Source of the DNA: a virus
Length of the DNA stretch: 38,390 nucleotides
Reading direction: 5' to 3' (one strand)
Virus record (IMG/VR): IMGVR_UViG_3300045911_000580
Coordinates: 1-38,390 of that record
Shown: piece by piece, positions 25,386 to 36,552 of the stretch
How the letters are laid out: each line of letters begins with the position of its first letter
How positions within the stretch are numbered: the stretch's first letter is position 1
Notes under the pieces: model-generated
Told to the model about the DNA's origin: nothing
The model's database searches: none
The model's input: only the letters and a program-made list of their open reading frames with translations
Made by a program: the position numbers and the translations under genes

Positions 25386-26044
25386 GATGCTTCGATCTCC
25401 GATCCGAGCAGCCCGACCCGCCGCCGGTGCGAAAGCATCGGCTCGCCAGGGGCCGCGTGGTGCGCCGGGACATGCGGCGCATCATCGGCGTGACCATCCA
25501 TCAGACCGCCACGCCGTTCTCGGTGGCGCCGTTCCAGATCCAGGCGGCGGGCGGGGATGAGGACCTGGCCCTGGCGCGCCGCGCGCTGGGTGTGGCATGC
25601 CACGGCATGGCGTTCCGGCGGGGGTTCTACGCGCTGGCGAACCCTCTCGAGTGGTACGTCCACCACGGAAACGCGTTCAACCCTGATCATCTCGGGATTG
25701 AGATCGAAGGCCGGTTCCCGGGGCTGTTATCGGATCCGGTGCGGACCACCTGGGGCGGCCCCCCCACCGAGTTCACCACGGCGCTCCTGGAGGCGGCGAA
25801 AGCGTGCCTCCGCCACGTGGTCGACGAGGCACGGGCGGCCGGCGCCCCACTCGAGTGGGTGACCGCGCACCGGCAGTCCAGCGCCACCCGACGCAGCGAT
25901 CCTGGCGAGGAGCCGTGGCGCGAGCTCGTCTTGAACTACGCCGTGCCCGTCCTCGGCCTCAAGGTGAACAACGCCCTCGTCCGCGGCACAGGGAGACCGA
26001 TCCCCATGGCATGGGACCCTGCGGCTGGCGTGGGCCGGTACTAG
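25382..26044 (+). CDS. Endolysin: N-acetylmuramoyl-L-alanine amidase
   Basis: 220 residues from ATG 25382. Amidase_2 fold: zinc ligands His40 (VTIHQT) and His163 (TAHRQSS), with Asp173 in SDPG as the third, and His74 in ACHGMAF in the usual early position. The middle (HLGIEIEGRFPG) is the beta strand typical of this family. It cuts the amide bond between N-acetylmuramic acid and L-alanine of peptidoglycan at lysis, crossing the inner membrane with help of the preceding membrane proteins. There is no signal peptide and no separate wall-binding domain. It overlaps the integrase stop by four bases (26041-26044). Confidence 0.85.
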   Translation: MRCFDLRSEQPDPPPVRKHRLARGRVVRRDMRRIIGVTIHQTATPFSVAPFQIQAAGGDEDLALARRALGVACHGMAFRRGFYALANPLEWYVHHGNAFNPDHLGIEIEGRFPGLLSDPVRTTWGGPPTEFTTALLEAAKACLRHVVDEARAAGAPLEWVTAHRQSSATRRSDPGEEPWRELVLNYAVPVLGLKVNNALVRGTGRPIPMAWDPAAGVGRY

Positions 26045-26061
26045 CTCGCCCGCGAGGCTAG
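26041..26061. terminator. Stem-loop at the convergent end of late and integrase operons
   Basis: CTAGCTCG (26041-26048) pairs with CGAGGCTAG (26053-26061) with one bulged base and a 4-base loop. It stands exactly at the overlap of the two convergent stop codons, so it could end both transcripts. There is no T-run on either side, so it is not a standard intrinsic terminator. Confidence 0.35.
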
Positions 26062-27681
26062 CTGCACCTCGCCCACCGCTTCCAGCGTGACCAGGTCGGC
26101 CGTGCGCGCCCCCGCAATTCCCACCCGGCCACGGCCGCCGCTGACTCCTACCAGGGCAGCGGGCAGCAGGCCGGCCCGGACCTCGGCCACGCCGCCCTGC
26201 GGCGTGACCCGAACCTCGGAGACGACGCCGCGCAGCGCGTCCCGGGCGGTCGTCACGTCCGCGCTGGCCAGCAGCGTCTCGAGCTGCCGCACGCGCGCCT
26301 CGAGCTCGGCCACCGAGGGGAGGGCGCGCGGCGCCTGCGGCAGCGCCGCGAGCGCGGCGCGGTGGGTCGCGATCTCGGACTCCAGCTCGCGCAGCCGGGC
26401 GACGAGCGCGGAGGGCGCCGCGCCGCCGGCGACGGCGTCGACCAGCCGCTCAGCCTGGGCCTGGGCTCGGGCGATCCGGGCCTCGAGCTCGTCGCGCTCC
26501 CGGCTCGCGCCTCGCCCGCGCGCTGCGATGCGCTCGGCCAGCACCGCCCGCAGCGCCACGAGCCGCTCGGGCGCGAAGAGGTGGTCGCGCACCAGGCGCA
26601 GCACGAGCGCCCGAAGATCCTCCTCGCGCACGCTGCTCCGCGATGCGCACGTGCCCCGCGCTCGCGCGTCGGCGCACCGGTAGTACCGGCGGCCCTCGGT
26701 CCCGCCGTGCACCGTCAGAAGCCCCCCGCAGACCCCGCACCGCGCCAGGCCGGACAGGAGGTAGCTCCGTCGCGCGGATCCTCGCCGCTCGTCCGCGGTC
26801 ATCGTGGCCGGCCGGGGCTCGGCGCTCGACGCGCTCTGCGCGGCCGCGAAGAGGGCGTGGTCGACGATCGCCAGCTCGGGTCGCTCGAGGCGCACGAGCG
26901 CACCCACGCGCGCGCGCGGGCGGCGGACGTTCGTGCCGGGCAGCTTCCGCCATTCGCGAGCGCCGAAGGTCCACTCGCCCAGATACCGGCGGTTCGCGAG
27001 GATCGCTCGGAGCGTCGTGTGCTGCCACGACGGCGCGCGGGCCCGGCGCGAGCTCCGCGGCGGGGGCACGCCCTCGGCGTTCAGGGCGGCCGCGATGTCG
27101 CCCCGCGAGCGCCCCGCCGCGTACTGCGCGAAGACCCGGCGCACGATCGCGGCCTGGTCGGGGTCGATCTCGATCACTCGCCCGCCCTCGGGCCGCGGGC
27201 TCGAGCGGTAGCCGTAGGGGAGGCCGCCCGTCGAAAGGCCGGCGCGGGCGCGCGCCTCGAGTCCGCGCAGGGTCTTGTCCCGCAGGTCGTCGAGGTAGGC
27301 ATCGGCGAGCAGCGCCCGCACGCCCACGAGCAGCTTGCTGCCGCGCGCCGACGTGTCGACGCCGTCGGCCACGCCCACCAAAGCTACGTCGTGGTGGCGC
27401 AGCGCGCGGGTGACCGTGTGCGCGTCCGCCGCGTCGCGCGACACGCGAGACAGGTCCTCGACGAGGACAGCCTCCACCTCGCGCCGTTCCACCGAGCGCA
27501 TGCAGGCCAGCCATCCCGGCCGGTCGAGGCTCGCGCCGCTCACGGCGTAGTCCGCGTGGACGGCGGCCACGGTCCACCCGCGCTCGGTCGCGTGCCGGCG
27601 GCACCGCTCGACCTGCGCCTCGATCGAGCTCTCGCTCTGGCGGTCGGACGAGTAGCGAGCGTAGATCGCGACGCGGGTCAT
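26041..27681 (-). CDS. Large serine recombinase (phage integrase)
   Basis: 546 residues from ATG 27681; the open frame continues 72 codons upstream but the conserved start MTRVAIYARYSSDRQ fixes this start. Catalytic N-terminal domain: Ser11 in YARYSSDRQ, QVERCRRHATERGW, SRVSRDAADAH; then the recombinase domain (RGLEARARAGLSTGGLPYGY; IDPDQAAIVRRVFAQYAAG) and the zinc beta ribbon (CGVCGG...CADARARGTC), followed by the C-terminal coiled coil. It would integrate the phage at a host attachment site and, with an accessory factor, excise it. It is the last gene of the PL operon and overlaps the previous gene (ATGA). Confidence 0.88.
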   Translation of the reverse strand: MTRVAIYARYSSDRQSESSIEAQVERCRRHATERGWTVAAVHADYAVSGASLDRPGWLACMRSVERREVEAVLVEDLSRVSRDAADAHTVTRALRHHDVALVGVADGVDTSARGSKLLVGVRALLADAYLDDLRDKTLRGLEARARAGLSTGGLPYGYRSSPRPEGGRVIEIDPDQAAIVRRVFAQYAAGRSRGDIAAALNAEGVPPPRSSRRARAPSWQHTTLRAILANRRYLGEWTFGAREWRKLPGTNVRRPRARVGALVRLERPELAIVDHALFAAAQSASSAEPRPATMTADERRGSARRSYLLSGLARCGVCGGLLTVHGGTEGRRYYRCADARARGTCASRSSVREEDLRALVLRLVRDHLFAPERLVALRAVLAERIAARGRGASRERDELEARIARAQAQAERLVDAVAGGAAPSALVARLRELESEIATHRAALAALPQAPRALPSVAELEARVRQLETLLASADVTTARDALRGVVSEVRVTPQGGVAEVRAGLLPAALVGVSGGRGRVGIAGARTADLVTLEAVGEVQLASRAS

Positions 27682-27887
27682 GCAGTGCGCTCGAGGTCGT
27701 CGGGGGGGTCGTTGGCGGGCCGATCGCGGTCCCACGCGTCCAACGCGAGATCCGCAAGGAGCTCGAGCAGGCGCCGCTCGGCGTCGGTCAGGGCCACGGG
27801 GGTAGGGTGCGCGCCCTGCTCCGAACCGTGCAAGGTGCGGCGCCTCCCATGGTCCTCGTGCTGCCTCGGCTCCTCGTCCCAGGTCAT
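27678..27887 (-). CDS. Small acidic protein coupled to the integrase
   Basis: 69 residues from ATG 27887, overlapping the integrase start (ATGA). The C-terminal half holds a short amphipathic helix (TDAERRLLELLADLALDAWD) and acidic tail; the N-terminal half is His/Arg-rich. No family recognised. Translational coupling makes it a natural candidate for an integrase partner such as a recombination directionality factor, although no signature proves it. Confidence 0.5.
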   Translation of the reverse strand: MTWDEEPRQHEDHGRRRTLHGSEQGAHPTPVALTDAERRLLELLADLALDAWDRDRPANDPPDDLERTA

Positions 27888-27893
27888 CGCCCT

Positions 27894-28466
27894 TCACTCG
27901 ACGCCCGCTTCTCCACGCACGACGATCAGCTGACCGGCCGGCACGGTACCAGCGTCCTCTGCGGGGTACCCGAGCCGCTGCAGCAGCTCGACGGCCGGGA
28001 GCGCGGTGAGCGCGTCACGCACGCGGGCGACGAGCGGCGCGTCGCGACCGCCGACCCCCTCGTCCTTCTTCCTGCGAATCTTCCCCTTCGCCTTCGGCGC
28101 GAGAGCCGCGGAGATGTCCATCCCCGTGCGCAGGCGGCTCTTGATGGTCGAGATCGGCAGCCCGTGCTTGTTGTCCGCGCTCGCGGCCCACTCCTTGATC
28201 GTCTTCCCGTCGTACGTCTTCGCAGGCATCGGCATCGCAGCACCTCCTTCACGGCGCACCAGCGCCGCCACATCGACGTCGGGCTGCTCTCCGCGCGCAT
28301 GCGCGGCCCCGATCGCGCAGCCGCGGCACTGCATGAACTGCAGCCGCGCGGATCCCCTCTCACCAGTGCTCCACGGCGCCGACGCCGCCGCGTGCCGCTG
28401 CGCGCACGCCGAGCGCGTGAGCCGGCACGAGTAGACGGCGCAGCTGAACAGCTCGAGCGCGGTCAC
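27894..28466 (-). CDS. Cys-containing protein with basic HTH-like segment
   Basis: 190 residues from GTG 28466 (GTGA overlap with the sigma-like gene). Cysteines 9, 14, 21, 47 and 50 (FSCAVYSC, MQCRGCAIG) might bind zinc. Residues 85-130 (KTIKEWAASADNKHGLPIST, IKSRLRTGMDISAAL) resemble a DNA-binding helix-turn-helix followed by a basic tail. No family recognised. A shorter version could start at ATG codons near residue 78. Position after the sigma-like gene suggests a regulatory role. Confidence 0.55.
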   Translation of the reverse strand: MTALELFSCAVYSCRLTRSACAQRHAAASAPWSTGERGSARLQFMQCRGCAIGAAHARGEQPDVDVAALVRREGGAAMPMPAKTYDGKTIKEWAASADNKHGLPISTIKSRLRTGMDISAALAPKAKGKIRRKKDEGVGGRDAPLVARVRDALTALPAVELLQRLGYPAEDAGTVPAGQLIVVRGEAGVE

Positions 28467-28903: not shown

Positions 28904-29328
28904 CACCACACCTCGCCCGCGAGCGCCACATGCCGCGCGACGCGAGCAAGCGCCTCGAGCGCCGCCTGGTCGTCGGTCGTCTCGATCGTCCCGGCGCAGA
29001 AAACGCTCCGCTCGGTGTCTCCGCTGGCGACGATCGCGATCCGTGGCCCCGCCTCGAGAGCGACGCCCAGCTCGACCCAGCAGCCCGCGCTGGGTACGTC
29101 CTCGCCGGGGACGAGCAGCCAGAGCGCGTCAGCCTGGCGAACGCCGTGCAGGCACGACACGGCGGCCCCCCGCCGCTCGGCCAGGGACAGGCCGCGGTTC
29201 GCCCGACCCGCGCGGTCGATCTCGGCCGGCCAGTCTCCGGTGACCTGCCATCCGCGCGCTCGACACGCCGCGATCGCGGCTCGCGCTCGGTCGAGCTCAC
29301 GCGAGCTCCCTGCGACGTAGATCTTCAC
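28903..29328 (-). CDS. Nucleoside 2-deoxyribosyltransferase-like protein
   Basis: 141 residues from GTG 29328 (GTGA overlap with ParB-like gene). Rossmann-like: N-terminal MKIYVAGSSRELDRARAAI, then DALWLLVPGE, and GCWVELGVAL with the Glu in the position of the catalytic nucleophile of deoxyribosyltransferases (YtoQ/DUF4406-type group). Such enzymes cleave or transfer the base of a nucleotide, or bind nucleotides as sensors. The presence in a phage early operon suggests nucleotide salvage, modification or counter-defence. Catalysis is not demonstrated. Confidence 0.6.
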   Translation of the reverse strand: MKIYVAGSSRELDRARAAIAACRARGWQVTGDWPAEIDRAGRANRGLSLAERRGAAVSCLHGVRQADALWLLVPGEDVPSAGCWVELGVALEAGPRIAIVASGDTERSVFCAGTIETTDDQAALEALARVARHVALAGEVW

Positions 29329-30938
29329 GTCGCCCGAGCCTTGTGCGCTGCGCGCACCGTCTTCGTCGTGTGCCGCGCGATGGCCTGCCAGTCGACGCCG
29401 AGCGCGGCCAGCAGCGCGGACTCCGTGTCGCCCGGCTTGGCGGACTGCATGAGGCCGGTGCCGTCGAGCACGAGGTCGACGATGAGCGCCAGACGACCCG
29501 CGTCGGTCATCGCGGCCGCGGCGTCACGGAGCTTGGCCAGCTCGTCGCCGTCCCCACCCTTTTCCTCGCCGCGCGCGCGCACCTTCAGGCCGTGGCGATC
29601 GCGCATCTCGGCGTCGACCGGGGCGGTGTCCCACCAGTCGATGATGATCGCCGCGAACGCCGTCCAGAACGCCGACTTGTTCCACGCCCCGCCACGCAGT
29701 TGGGTGGCGATCGCGTCGCGCACACGCCTGCTGACGAGCCTGCGGATCTCCGCGTCCTGCCGCGCCGCGGCGATCGCCGCGTCGTCGCGAGCCCTGTCCG
29801 CCTCGGACTCGGCGCGGCGCAGCGTGCGCAGCGAGGCCACCTCCATCGGTCGCCCGTCCGGGGCGCGCACCAGCATCACCTCGACGTGCTCGCAGCCTGC
29901 GAGTTGCTCGCGCCACGTCTTCGTGGGGTCCTCGTCAGACCAGGCGTCGAGGTCGACGTAGCCGTTGCTGAGCCCGTACGTGGTCGGGAAGACCTTCCGC
30001 GCCGTCTCTTCGTCCGCCACCTTGAGGCCGCGCTCCGCCGCGCGTGCGGAGACGGCCCGCCAGTGGTCCTCCACCTTGCCGTCCCAGCACTCCGGGTCCG
30101 TGCAGCGGTTTCCGTCGAGCAGCTCGCGGAACAGCGCCTGCTGAGCGTCGCTACGCTTCGGGCAGCTCGTGCACGAGCCTCCTCGGGCATGCTCGTCGTG
30201 CACGTCGAACGGCGCGTCCTCGATCACCATCAGCCGCTGCTTCACGAGCTCGCGCGCCGCGCTGACCGGCACCTCCCCGTCGCCGTACAGCGTGAGCAGC
30301 TTCCGAAGCGCCGCGTCCTGGGCGCTCGGGGTGGCGACCCGCGCAATCAGCAGGGCGACACCGAGGGAGATCCGGCCCTCCACGAACGCCGCCCGCCCTT
30401 CGGCCGTGAGCTGCTCGAGACGGAGCCGGTCATACACATACTGCTCGGTCCGCCCCATCATCGCGGCGATCCGCGCGACCGACGCATGCTGCTCGTCTCG
30501 GAGCCGGACGAACGCGTCGCACTGATCGATCGGGTGCATGTCCTCGCGCTGATCGTTCTCGGCGACGGCGATCCGGAACGCCACGTCGTCGGGCACGTCG
30601 ACCACCTCGACGACGTCGAGCCACGCTCGCGCCGGGACTTGCTCCGCCGCGAGCACGCTCGCACGCCAGCGTCGCTCGCCAGCGAGGACCTCGTACCGCA
30701 GGCGGCCGTCGTCGGTCTCACCCGACTGGCGGACGACCGGCGCCTCGATCACGCCCAGCTGCGCGATCGAGTCCGCGAGCTCGCGCAGCCGCAGCTCGTA
30801 GTCCGCAGCCTTGACGCGACGCGGGTTCAGCGGGCTCGCGCAGAGCTGGCCCACGTGCACCTCGAGGTGGCGTCGCTCGTAGATCGCCGGCGTGTTCCCG
30901 GCCGGCTGCTCGGTCTTCTTGCTCTTCCTCTTCGACAT
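29325..30938 (-). CDS. ParB/KorB-like DNA-binding protein
   Basis: 537 residues from ATG 30938, with GGAGAT upstream (nine bases from the previous stop). N-terminal ParB nuclease-like fold: LCASPLNPRRVKA, LADSIAQLGVIEAPVV, YEVLAGERRWRASVLA. HTH: RIAAMMGRTEQYVYDRLRLE. A Cys cluster CTSCPKRSD...CTDPEC lies near residue 255 and suggests a metal-binding site. The C-terminal 300 residues are helical and charged. ParB-like proteins in phages can organise DNA, partition plasmid-like prophages, or regulate genes. No ParA is encoded here. Confidence 0.82.
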   Translation of the reverse strand: MSKRKSKKTEQPAGNTPAIYERRHLEVHVGQLCASPLNPRRVKAADYELRLRELADSIAQLGVIEAPVVRQSGETDDGRLRYEVLAGERRWRASVLAAEQVPARAWLDVVEVVDVPDDVAFRIAVAENDQREDMHPIDQCDAFVRLRDEQHASVARIAAMMGRTEQYVYDRLRLEQLTAEGRAAFVEGRISLGVALLIARVATPSAQDAALRKLLTLYGDGEVPVSAARELVKQRLMVIEDAPFDVHDEHARGGSCTSCPKRSDAQQALFRELLDGNRCTDPECWDGKVEDHWRAVSARAAERGLKVADEETARKVFPTTYGLSNGYVDLDAWSDEDPTKTWREQLAGCEHVEVMLVRAPDGRPMEVASLRTLRRAESEADRARDDAAIAAARQDAEIRRLVSRRVRDAIATQLRGGAWNKSAFWTAFAAIIIDWWDTAPVDAEMRDRHGLKVRARGEEKGGDGDELAKLRDAAAAMTDAGRLALIVDLVLDGTGLMQSAKPGDTESALLAALGVDWQAIARHTTKTVRAAHKARAT

Positions 30939-33017: not shown

Positions 33018-33060
33018 GTTATGGACGACTGTCCACATCGCGTCAAGGACGACTGTCCAC
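33018..33060 (-). promoter_or_regulatory. PL: leftward promoter with two GGAC-N4-GTCC operators
   Basis: On the minus strand: -35 TTGACG (33041-33046), 17-bp spacer, -10 CATAAC (33018-33023), then 7 bases to ATG 33010. Operator sites GGACGACTGTCC lie at 33023-33034 (in the spacer) and 33047-33058 (just upstream of the -35), centres 24 bp apart. The block is nearly the same as that at PR. Repressor binding to the first site would block RNA polymerase. Confidence 0.82.
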
Positions 33061-34020: not shown

Positions 34021-34629
34021 ATGGGACCGGACGGGACTGGAATCTCGCCGCGCCTCGAGGGCATCGCGGCAGAGCTGCTCGAGGCGTCGCTCGCCGCGCT
34101 GCCTGTCGACGCGCTCGAGCTCGCGGCATGCTGCGGGCTCGAGGTGCGGCTCTCGGAGGTCCGCGACGCCATCCTCTACGACGGCACCATCTACGTCTCG
34201 CGCCGGGTCCGGGTCTCGCGCGTGCACCTCCTCGTGGCGCACGAGCTCGGGCACTGGGCGCTGAGGCGGGCGGGGCAAGCCGACCTCGAGCGCGACGCGG
34301 ACTACCTCGCGGGCGCGCTCCTCGTCCCGCGGCTCGCGCTCGAGCGCGACCTCCGCGCCGGCTGGGACCTGGACGCGCTCAGAGCCGTGCACGCGCACGC
34401 GCCGGCCTCGACGATTGCGACGCGCATCGCCCAGCTCCGGGGGGCGACCGCGGCGGTCTACGACGAGGGGCGTCTGCGCCGTCGCGTCGGGCCCGAGCTG
34501 GCGCTCGAGCGTGAGCTCGTCGACCAGGTGCTCGTCCATGAGCGCGCGGTCCGCGTGGACGCGACCACCGGCGCGTGGCCCGTCATCGACGGGAGGTGCA
34601 GGCGGGTGATCGTGGTGGGGGCGGCGTGA
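34021..34629 (+). CDS. ImmA/IrrE-type metallopeptidase (anti-repressor protease)
   Basis: 202 residues from ATG 34021. Zinc-protease motif HELGH (His74, Glu75, His78) in LVAHELGHWAL, followed by the conserved ERDADYLAGALLVP segment with the third ligand (Glu90/Asp92 region), typical of ImmA/IrrE. Family members cleave phage or element repressors (ICEBs1 ImmA) or stress regulators. The phage repressor 1.0 kb away has no self-cleavage domain, which fits this partner. Not part of either operon; upstream signals are weak. A terminator follows. Confidence 0.78.
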   Translation: MGPDGTGISPRLEGIAAELLEASLAALPVDALELAACCGLEVRLSEVRDAILYDGTIYVSRRVRVSRVHLLVAHELGHWALRRAGQADLERDADYLAGALLVPRLALERDLRAGWDLDALRAVHAHAPASTIATRIAQLRGATAAVYDEGRLRRRVGPELALERELVDQVLVHERAVRVDATTGAWPVIDGRCRRVIVVGAA

Positions 34630-34654: not shown

Positions 34655-35089
34655 TCAGCCTCGAGGCTGGTTTTGCTGCCGGTCCCAGGCCTCTACCTTG
34701 GGCTTCCACGTCTTGAGGATCCGGTCTGCATGCTTGCGGATCTCGTCGTAGTCAGCCCACGTGAACTGCTTGTCGAGGTAGTACCGCCACTTCTCGCTCT
34801 GCTGCTTGAGGTTCTGGTAGCTGGGGTGGGTCGACTTCAGCTCGGGGCGAGCATGGATGAGGGACCGCATGTCCTCGTGCGACGTGATGACGTCGCCCTT
34901 CGTCGCCGCGTAGGCGCGCACGACGTGGAGGGCGCTGTAGAAGAGAGCCGTGATCGCCCACCCCACCGCCGCTGGATCGGACGCGCCGGCCTTCCGCAGA
35001 GCGTCCCCGAAGGCGAGGTTGACCTCGGCGCCCTCGAGATGCCGAAGAGGCGGAAGTTGCTGCTCAATGGATGACAGAAACCGCTGCAT
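34655..35089 (-). CDS. HEPN-like protein, last gene of the cargo cassette
   Basis: 144 residues from ATG 35089. The order of helices (AITALFYSALHVVRAYAATK, then SHEDMRSLIHARPELKSTH, YQNLKQQSEKWRYYLDKQF, DYDEIRKHADRIL) has the HEPN-family pattern of F/Y-rich helices and a His/Arg segment; an Arg81-x6-His88 motif might correspond to the RNase motif R-x4-6-H, although it may be coincidental. HEPN proteins are often RNases or toxin-linked partners in abortive infection. It overlaps the 107-aa gene by 26 bp. Composition is lower in GC than the rest (34 of 60 bases in 34741-34800). Confidence 0.6.
   Translation of the reverse strand: MQRFLSSIEQQLPPLRHLEGAEVNLAFGDALRKAGASDPAAVGWAITALFYSALHVVRAYAATKGDVITSHEDMRSLIHARPELKSTHPSYQNLKQQSEKWRYYLDKQFTWADYDEIRKHADRILKTWKPKVEAWDRQQNQPRG
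34656..34674 (+). terminator. Intrinsic terminator after the ImmA-like gene
   Basis: CAGCC (34656-34660), loop TCGA, GGCTG (34665-34669), then G and TTTT (34671-34674): a perfect 5-bp GC stem with a T run on the plus strand, 26 bases after the ImmA-like stop. It lies inside the last codons of the convergent HEPN-like gene, so both functions share this DNA. Confidence 0.6.
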
Positions 35090-35387
35090 CCGGGACCAGT
35101 TCGATCGCCGCCTTCGGGACCAGGTCCATGTCCACGTCGTCGATCTGAGCAAGGACGTTCACGATCTGGAAGTCCCTCTTCACGTCGTGCGTGTTGAGGA
35201 TGACGAAGACCTTGTCCCGAGCCCCGATGCCGTGACGCTCGTCCTTGGGGAGAACGCGGATGTCCTGCACTCCCTCGAACCTCTGAAGGATGCCCGTGAG
35301 CACCTCAGCCGTGCTCAGCGCCCATGTTCCAACGCGACCCTGTCCGGTCCACGTGACATCGATCGTCGTCTTCTCAGAGGCTGCCAT
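35064..35387 (-). CDS. Cargo cassette protein of unknown function (107 aa)
   Basis: 107 residues from ATG 35387, with GGGGAGGG 10 to 15 bases upstream. It looks like a small alpha/beta domain (TIDVTWTGQGRVGTWAL; RFEGVQDIRVLPKDERHG; DKVFVILNTHDVKRDFQIVN; IDDVDMDLVPKAAIEL). An Asp-rich D-x-D-x-D near residues 84-88 might bind metal; this would be compatible with, but does not show, a nucleotidyltransferase partner of the HEPN protein. It overlaps the neighbouring genes by 14 and 26 bp, indicating coupled expression. Confidence 0.6.
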   Translation of the reverse strand: MAASEKTTIDVTWTGQGRVGTWALSTAEVLTGILQRFEGVQDIRVLPKDERHGIGARDKVFVILNTHDVKRDFQIVNVLAQIDDVDMDLVPKAAIELVPDAAVSVIH

Positions 35388-35634
35388 CGCCACCCTCCCC
35401 ACTCGGCTCGGGCTCAACCACGGACACGTGCACGAACGACAGAACGCCGTACACCGGGCGTCCCCCTTCGGTCTCTGGGGGCCGTCGCATCACATCGACG
35501 ATGACCGGGCGCACTCGAAGCCGCGCCCCCTGCTCGGTGCGGATCACGACCGCCGCGTCCTCTTCGATCGAGAACACGACACTCTTTCCTTCCGTGGTCA
35601 TCCCGGCGCTTTGGTAGTCGGTCCGATCCGGCAT
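35374..35634 (-). CDS. Cargo cassette protein of unknown function (86 aa)
   Basis: 86 residues from ATG 35634, with GGGGA upstream; an internal ATG (residue 12) is possible. Beta-rich: GKSVVFSIEEDAAVVIRTEQ, ARLRVRPVIVDVMRRPPE, PVYGVLSFVHVSVVEPEP. It begins only 31 bp after the repressor stop and runs in the same direction, so it is probably co-transcribed with the repressor. No family recognised. Its neighbours suggest a role in the exclusion/toxin-like cassette. Confidence 0.6.
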   Translation of the reverse strand: MPDRTDYQSAGMTTEGKSVVFSIEEDAAVVIRTEQGARLRVRPVIVDVMRRPPETEGGRPVYGVLSFVHVSVVEPEPSGEGGDGSL

Positions 35635-35665: not shown

Positions 35666-36208
35666 CTACCGCCCCTGTTTCCCGCCCGTGACCCGCCGCC
35701 TGCCCTCGGGCACCGGCGGGAGCTCGCGGGGCGCCGTCGGCTCGCCGGCCGCCTCGGCCTTGAGCCGGGCGGCCCGCATGCGGATGGCCGGCAGGAGCAA
35801 GAGCAGCTCGTCGCGCACGAAGCGGCCGCCCCACGCGCGCACCTGGCGCCGCAGGTCGTCGGCCTCGGTCTGGTCGAGGCGCTGCTCCGTGATGAAGGCC
35901 TCGACCACCGGGTGGCGCTCGTCTTCCCGCTCCACGCGCGTCTCGCGCCGCCCCACGAAATCACGGTAGTCCGGCGCGTCGCCGAGCGTGGGGTCGGTGA
36001 AGAACGCCGCAGGCAGCCCCACCTTCGCGCAAACCTTGGAAATCTGATCGAGCCCAGGCTGCGTGACGCCCTCTCGTAGCCGCTGCGCGTAGCTAGGATC
36101 GAGCCCGACGGCCATCGCAACCTGACGGTCGGACTGCAGGTCGTGCTCCTCACGAAGCGCCTCCATCAAGAGAATCAGACGCGACCGCGCAAGCGACTTG
36201 AGGTCCAC
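35666..36208 (-). CDS. Lysogeny repressor (HTH, CI-like)
   Basis: 180 residues from GTG 36208. Residues 26-52 are an HTH (DRQVAMAVGLDPSYAQRLRE), typical of phage repressors, followed by VTQPGLDQISKVCAKVGLPAAFF, the helix that closes the XRE fold. Residues 80-180 are charged (VEREDERHPVVEAFITEQR) and helical, probably for dimerisation; there is no LexA-like peptidase domain. Divergent from the Cro-like gene around the operator pair. An ATG 42 bases downstream (36166) is an alternative start but would remove the first helix. Shine-Dalgarno is weak. Confidence 0.82.
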   Translation of the reverse strand: MDLKSLARSRLILLMEALREEHDLQSDRQVAMAVGLDPSYAQRLREGVTQPGLDQISKVCAKVGLPAAFFTDPTLGDAPDYRDFVGRRETRVEREDERHPVVEAFITEQRLDQTEADDLRRQVRAWGGRFVRDELLLLLPAIRMRAARLKAEAAGEPTAPRELPPVPEGRRRVTGGKQGR

Positions 36209-36230: not shown

Positions 36231-36274
36231 CGTGGACAGTCGTCCTTGACTCGGTGTGGACGACCGTCCATATT
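36231..36274 (+). promoter_or_regulatory. PR: rightward promoter with two operator palindromes
   Basis: -35 TTGACT (36246-36251), 17-bp spacer, -10 CATATT (36269-36274), 8 bases to ATG 36283. Operators GGACAGTCGTCC (36234-36245) directly before the -35 and GGACGACCGTCC (36258-36269) inside the spacer; centres 24 bp apart. The same arrangement occurs at PL. No equally clear promoter for the repressor was seen on the other strand. Confidence 0.82.
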
Positions 36275-36282
36275 CGTCCGCC

Positions 36283-36552
36283 ATGGATCCTCGCGACCGA
36301 TTTCTGCGGTGGGTGGCATGGCTGGGTGCCTCAGAAGCGGAGGTGGCCCGTCGGATCGGATGCGACGCCAGCTACCCGCGGCGCATCCGGCTCGGTGAGC
36401 GGCGACCCGGCCTCGACGTCGCCATCGCGATCGAGCGCGAGAGCGCTCTGCCCCGTCACGACGGTGAAGTCTGGCCCGAAGGTCCGATCCGAACGACGGA
36501 GTGGGCTGGACACCCCTCGACCGTGACGGTGGACGCGGCGGGAGGGGAGTGA
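36283..36552 (+). CDS. Cro-like HTH protein, first gene of the PR transcript
   Basis: 89 residues from ATG 36283, eight bases after the PR -10 element, so the mRNA should begin at or next to this ATG. HTH at residues 18-44 (SEAEVARRIGCDASYPRRIR, LGERRPG) like Cro/CI proteins; the remaining 40 residues are acidic and Pro-rich. A GTG-initiated form would start at 36256 inside the promoter and is unlikely. It is the counterpart of Cro and would oppose the repressor. Confidence 0.75.
   Translation: MDPRDRFLRWVAWLGASEAEVARRIGCDASYPRRIRLGERRPGLDVAIAIERESALPRHDGEVWPEGPIRTTEWAGHPSTVTVDAAGGE

Follow-up and report, generated by a model that had tools for sequence, protein, structure and literature searches.

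The three overlapping genes A, B and C at positions 34655-35634 of the phage DNA analysed here (the window, the 38,390 bases of IMG/VR record IMGVR_UViG_3300045911_000580) most likely make up a variant of the HEPN-MNT toxin-antitoxin pair, supplemented by an exchangeable third gene. Gene C is predicted to encode a HEPN-fold protein and gene B a degenerate MNT-fold protein without the catalytic motif of its relatives. The cassette lies directly behind the lysogeny repressor and is probably expressed with it as a defence of the lysogen.

The phage and its lysogeny switch

PHROGs matches in the window include a portal, a head protease, a capsid, a tail sheath, a tape measure, a baseplate, an integrase and a ParB-like protein, and by this gene content the source is a temperate, contractile-tailed phage. 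The integrase gene (26041-27897, minus strand; PHROGs), which also matches DNA invertases, lies near the gene of the ParB-like partition protein (29325-30938, minus strand; PHROGs). The latter may point to a plasmid-like state or to a role in regulation.

The lysogeny repressor, an XRE protein recognised by its HTH_3 match (E = 4e-4), is encoded at 35666-36208 on the minus strand within an ORF that extends up to 36319. The GTG at 36208 is probably the start codon, because initiation at 36319 would place the operators within the repressor gene. A palindrome search located these operators at 36232-36247 (GTGGACAGTCGTCCTT) and 36256-36271 (GTGGACGACCGTCCAT) on the plus strand, two 16-bp palindromes (GTGGACRRYCGTCCAY) with a spacing of 24 bp, between the repressor and a divergent gene for a small Cro-like HTH protein (36283-36552, plus strand, identified by its HTH match; the listed ORF begins at 36256). 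A CII-like gene comes after the Cro-like gene. A pR-like, rightward promoter motif, TTGACT-17-CATATT (36246-36274, plus strand), overlaps the operators. A second pair of the same palindromes is found at 33021-33036 and 33045-33060, upstream of the exonuclease-peptidase genes; the chance expectation for palindrome matches is ~ 0.5. Judging from these sites, the exonuclease-M78 peptidase operon, and with it the repressor's putative anti-repressor, is probably under repressor control as well. The two operator pairs (33021-33060 and 36232-36271) are 3.2 kb apart and in inverted relative orientation.

The M78 metallopeptidase of this operon is ImmA/IrrE-like and is encoded at 34021-34629 on the plus strand, convergent with the cassette (Pfam and PADLOC matches). 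It resembles CapP (PADLOC E 1e-9), and the similarity of the repressor to CapH is weak (PADLOC E 2e-3). CapH and CapP are regulators of CBASS-type defence. M78 peptidases commonly partner repressors and inactivate them, as in the ImmR/ImmA pair, and by analogy the phage peptidase is likely to be a repressor-cleaving anti-repressor.

Layout and composition of the cassette

Genes A (35374-35634), B (35064-35387) and C (34655-35089) follow the repressor on the minus strand after a gap of 31 bp and encode predicted proteins of 86, 107 and 144 amino acids, respectively. A and B overlap by 14 nt, B and C by 26 nt. These coordinates agree with the arrangement of overlapping, same-strand genes described in an earlier, sequence-only reading of the window. 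The Shine-Dalgarno context is good for A (GGGGA) and B (GGGGAGG) and weak for C. The layout suggests that the cassette is positioned for transcription with the repressor in the lysogen; searches of the sequence for a promoter of the leftward transcript and for an intrinsic terminator found none.

The GC content of the cassette is 0.640, compared with 0.718 for the whole window. The lowest-GC 980-nt stretch (0.639) is at 34660, and only 0.05% of the window's 980-nt stretches are as GC-poor as the cassette. The hand counts behind the GC drop reported earlier (34/60 and 33/60 against 47/60) were confirmed exactly, and the GC content of the window reaches its minimum at the cassette. That A, B and C might be chance ORFs of a GC-rich genome was considered and rejected, as homologues occur in the same order in two bacterial genomes.

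Gene C is predicted to encode a HEPN-fold protein

The C protein falls under the threshold of the Pfam HEPN family PF05168 (E = 0.02), and 11 of the 23 members of the C family match that model, the best with an E value of 6e-6. The AlphaFold model of C (mean pLDDT 92.9) comprises five helices. The best five PDB matches to the model are all HEPN proteins, the first being AF_0298 (PDB accession number 2hsb), which aligns with TM scores of 0.71/0.80 and an rmsd of 2.1 and is ~ 17% identical in sequence. Structure prediction thus bears out the HEPN-like character that had been attributed to the last protein of the cassette, and C as modelled is a HEPN-fold protein.

W44, F50, Y51, H71, Y91, R102 and Y103 are invariant across the 23 family members. 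R102 lies where the third main helix (residues 82-104) ends, and H71 in the insert between this helix and the second (residues 39-63). The Rx4-6H RNase motif at the end of helix 3 occurs in 0/23 C proteins, as does the RX4HXY motif; on inspection, the regular-expression matches to Rx4-6H proved to be out of register. HEPN proteins of the AF0298 type have the arginine without the Rx4-6H histidine together with a conserved histidine in the insert, and these two residues have been proposed to form an alternative active site (PMC3710099). Because the R102/H71 pattern matches that proposal, RNase activity of C is plausible by analogy; with the canonical HEPN RNase motif absent, C may instead be non-catalytic.

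The C copy at one locus (L018/L068, 5778-6053) lacks the middle of the HEPN domain, including the W..FY..H core, next to intact A and B, and as read from its sequence is probably a decayed toxin.

Gene B is predicted to encode a degenerate MNT-fold protein

The sequence-only reading had left the middle gene unrecognised, and a fold can now be assigned to it. The model of B (pLDDT 80.5) has an alpha-beta-beta-alpha-beta topology; the input for structure prediction excluded the L003 row (a phage-collection record). Its top PDB matches are nucleotidyltransferases and MNT antitoxins, namely 2rff (putative nucleotidyltransferase), 8xeo, 6m6u (MntA) and 1no5 (HI0073), with probabilities of 0.99-1.00, TM scores of 0.47-0.58 (~ 0.55) and Foldseek E values of 2e-3 to 2e-2, none below 1e-3. 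A profile of B aligned to 21 true MNTs in the same register as the fold match and scored above 400/400 column/block shuffles. In hhalign comparisons with real MNTs the probability was only 4-8% (E 0.005-0.01), so the assignment relies mainly on the fold search. The Pfam families NTP_transf_2/Polbeta left B unmatched, and the Polbeta model was blind to the B genes in genomes where it detected true MNTs by the dozen.

The loop between β1 and β2, which bears the GSX10DXD motif in MNTs, is shortened in B and the G-loop is missing. A genuine GSX10DXD motif is present in 0/23 B proteins; matches of the regular expression G[ST]..DxD in four of them are due to chance, none being in the β1/β2 register. 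In MNTs, the GS and DXD residues are required for modification of the HEPN partner (PMC7641770, PMC11586414). We regard B, with moderate confidence, as a degenerate MNT-fold protein whose likeness to MNTs is at the level of the fold.

A, B and C form a conserved unit

When bacterial genomes were searched with a small C alignment, the matches included a deltaproteobacterial MAG (L005) and a proteobacterial MAG (L006) with A, B and C in the order seen in the window, each protein 38-51% identical to its counterpart there. The A and B profiles independently retrieved A, B and C together at two further loci (L017 and L018), and at another (L028) A and C were retrieved by profile with B between them. 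When the B and C profiles were searched separately through the class/phylum of genome G001, their matches were adjacent on the same contigs (G096:C20 and G233:C27). A B-type ORF lies directly upstream of C at 25/25 C loci, overlapping it or at most ~ 100 bases away. In a leave-one-out test of 23 of these 25 loci (Tsatsa and L019 left out), the B profile ranked the upstream frame first in 23/23, with E values of 1e-18 to 2e-3, and the best non-B frame never reached an E value below 0.09. The homologues are thus linked rather than dispersed, as had been anticipated for a functional system: the B-C pair is found at essentially every locus, and A at six or more loci, the window among them.

Searched against 301 genomes of the phylum to which G005 belongs, the B profile retrieved all nine B-C loci, the nine having been part of the model, and in addition a decayed B-C pair (G338), an orphan B (G410) and weaker or contig-end matches. 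A few B-like sequences without a detectable C were also found (L088, perhaps L085). The family is sparse (5/237, 8/301 and 2/247 genomes), as expected for accessory modules. Viral contigs gave no match to the single-sequence queries P0001/P0002, scans with the profiles A6, A5 and A9 were equally unproductive, and a tblastn search of plasmids was likewise without match. Sequence-profile searches of the PDB returned chance matches only, and A, B and C had no useful match in PADLOC, NCBIfam or PHROGs.

The first gene is variable

Gene A, a predicted accessory protein or modulator, has homologues in at least five loci other than the window (L005, L006, L017, L018 and L028), and by eye the same layout is probably present at L019. 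The latter copy shares its contig with a canonical MNT-HEPN pair (L067, 4000-4780; LFGSQARGDADERSDFD). Elsewhere the position of A is taken by a DUF3467-like protein (L035; E 0.03, under the curated cut-off) or by proteins of 103 to 232 residues (Tsatsa, L009, L010, L021 and L025), and at other loci it holds nothing recognisable. We infer a constant B-C core with a first gene that looks like an interchangeable modulator or sensor. At L036 (121-1014), a proteasome-like protein (MTIVVAVKVNDGLVLAADSAV) precedes B-C in the place of A, which is possibly another exchangeable partner or a chance arrangement.

Genomic neighbourhoods

The A-B-C copy on contig 27 of G233 (L065, 40-9466) is flanked by DISARM DrmD/DrmMI with a 257-aa gene and by an RmrA-like XRE-M78 regulator, and a SoFic/PDC-S04-like gene lies nearby; judged by these genes, the region is a defence island. 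The fused XRE-M78 protein adjoining the cassette there is comparable to the separate repressor and M78 peptidase of the window. A named multi-gene defence system was present at only this one of the neighbourhoods examined and at several there was none. Integrases neighbour the copies at L003 and L006, the L006 copy lying directly behind a tyrosine integrase, and the surroundings of several relatives contain no lysogeny repressor.

A published parallel comes from the Thermus phage Tsatsa, in which a homologue of C is encoded between a LexA-like repressor and the integrase. The HEPN protein is proposed there to be a defence effector of the lysogenic state, the counterpart of the region in IN93 is presumed to be transcribed from the prophage, and in unrelated Thermus phages the repressor-integrase interval is used to carry genes for defence (PMC11437467). 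The genome of Thermus composti, a cultivable source, contains a prophage similar to Tsatsa in which B, C and the 103-aa first gene are identical (L008 and L002).

Comparison with known systems

The first gene of an MNT-HEPN pair is that of the MNT, which acts as the antitoxin, and the HEPN protein is an RNase toxin (PMC3710099, PMC7641770). Like the type VII HEPN-MNT (HepT/MntA) modules of S. oneidensis (SO_3166/SO_3165) and L. pneumophila, the cassette has an upstream MNT-fold gene that overlaps the HEPN gene, and the folds match. It differs in that B is devoid of GSX10DXD and the G-loop, C is devoid of RX4HXY, and an extra gene A is present. With these motifs missing, AMPylation-based neutralisation is not expected, and since two defining motifs are absent the cassette is not filed as a type VII member. 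A module that works most like the type VII ones but differs in this way is accurately called 'HEPN with pseudo-MNT'. The AF0298-type HEPN-T proteins (2hsb, PF05168) are the best structural match to C, which shares with them the retained arginine, the lost motif histidine and the alternative histidine in the helix-2/3 insert; C differs in its low sequence identity, its sub-threshold Pfam score and its pairing with a dead MNT.

The Tsatsa region resembles the cassette in its homologous C, its prophage position, its small overlapping upstream gene and its proposed role in lysogen defence (PMC11437467), whereas its first genes encode a WD40 protein and a 103-aa protein in place of A. The MNT-like partner and the wider family go unmentioned in the section of that account cited here (PMC11437467). 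Tha of S. aureus prophages is likewise a prophage-encoded HEPN effector that protects lysogens, but its architecture differs from that of C and it is restrained by Ith, the product of an overlapping antisense gene, rather than by an MNT-fold partner (PMC11087260). None of the PADLOC system models matched A, B or C. No description of the B-C pair was found in the open-licence literature, which, for a search of open-licence papers, is weak evidence.

Proposed mechanism and alternative explanations

We favour, as rather probable, the interpretation that the cassette is a prophage-borne defence module of the toxin-antitoxin type, with C as the HEPN effector, B as a dead, sequestering MNT and A as an accessory protein. 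In the lysogen, A, B and C would be transcribed by read-through from the promoter of the repressor itself. C would be an AF0298-type (HEPN-T) effector and most probably an RNase in which R102 and H71 replace the lost Rx4-6H histidine. B, made before C from the same transcript, would keep C inactive by direct binding, because it has lost the MNT motifs and is not expected to AMPylate its partner. A would be a small protein that tunes the B-C complex or senses on its behalf. C would be freed when another phage infects the cell, or when B or transcription of the repressor is lost, and would then cut RNA and stop growth before the invader spreads.

A plain addiction pair of a plasmid or prophage, in which C is the toxin and B the antitoxin, the site merely gives lysogenic expression and no anti-phage role exists, is unlikely but is the best of the alternatives. 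It would account for the antitoxin-first, overlapping order of two genes and for the patchy, TA-like distribution, and a HigB-type (Gp49) + HTH toxin-antitoxin pair does adjoin the L018/L068 copy. It fits poorly with a third gene conserved across loci, with the DISARM neighbour and with the use of the repressor-integrase position as a defence-cargo site in unrelated Thermus phages (PMC11437467).

Less probable again is a domesticated, non-toxic complex in which the HEPN protein and the dead MNT have a regulatory function through binding of RNA or protein, such as tuning of the repressor/peptidase switch between whose genes the cassette sits. The canonical active motifs are indeed missing from both B and C, and fused HEPNs are often motif-less and have turned regulatory (PMC3710099). 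However, R102 and H71 are invariant in 23/23 proteins and correspond to the alternative active site proposed for AF0298-like HEPNs (PMC3710099), and at several related loci no lysogeny repressor is close by.

It is highly improbable that the cassette is a canonical type VII pair, in which the MNT would AMPylate C, e.g., on Y103, through an unrecognised site. The MNT-like fold, the gene order and an invariant Y103 next to R102 are compatible with it, as is the retention of the tyrosine without RX4H in class II HEPN-MNT pairs (PMC7641770), but GSX10DXD is found in none of the 23 B proteins, the β1/β2 G-loop is gone, and modification requires the GS/DXD residues (PMC7641770, PMC11586414). A genuine RexAB-like, membrane-acting exclusion system is scarcely credible: the cistrons of lambda rexAB also lie behind the repressor on the same strand, but no sequence or fold relation to the cassette was found, A, B and C have no Pfam or PHROG match to RexA or RexB, and the predicted folds, a soluble HEPN bundle for C and an MNT fold for B, largely refute it. 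The earlier reading of the site behind the repressor as that of an exclusion system therefore gains a parallel in the account of Tsatsa (PMC11437467), while the core of the cassette is most likely a HEPN-MNT-like pair and not a Rex-like one.

Beyond the toxin-antitoxin-type defence module favoured for the window, the cassette may, on a more tentative view, represent a family of tripartite defence modules, as yet unnamed, that occurs in phages, prophages and defence islands. In such a family a pseudoenzyme MNT would hold the HEPN RNase by binding alone, and the exchangeable first gene (A, a DUF3467-like protein or larger proteins) would be a sensor that releases the HEPN protein on infection. 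A coherent family in which an MNT without its chemistry is still linked to HEPN would demonstrate that neutralisation can be achieved by binding only. A profile of the family would cover many gene pairs that are at present unannotated, and it would account for the neglected partner gene of Thermus prophage regions that have already been proposed to function in defence.
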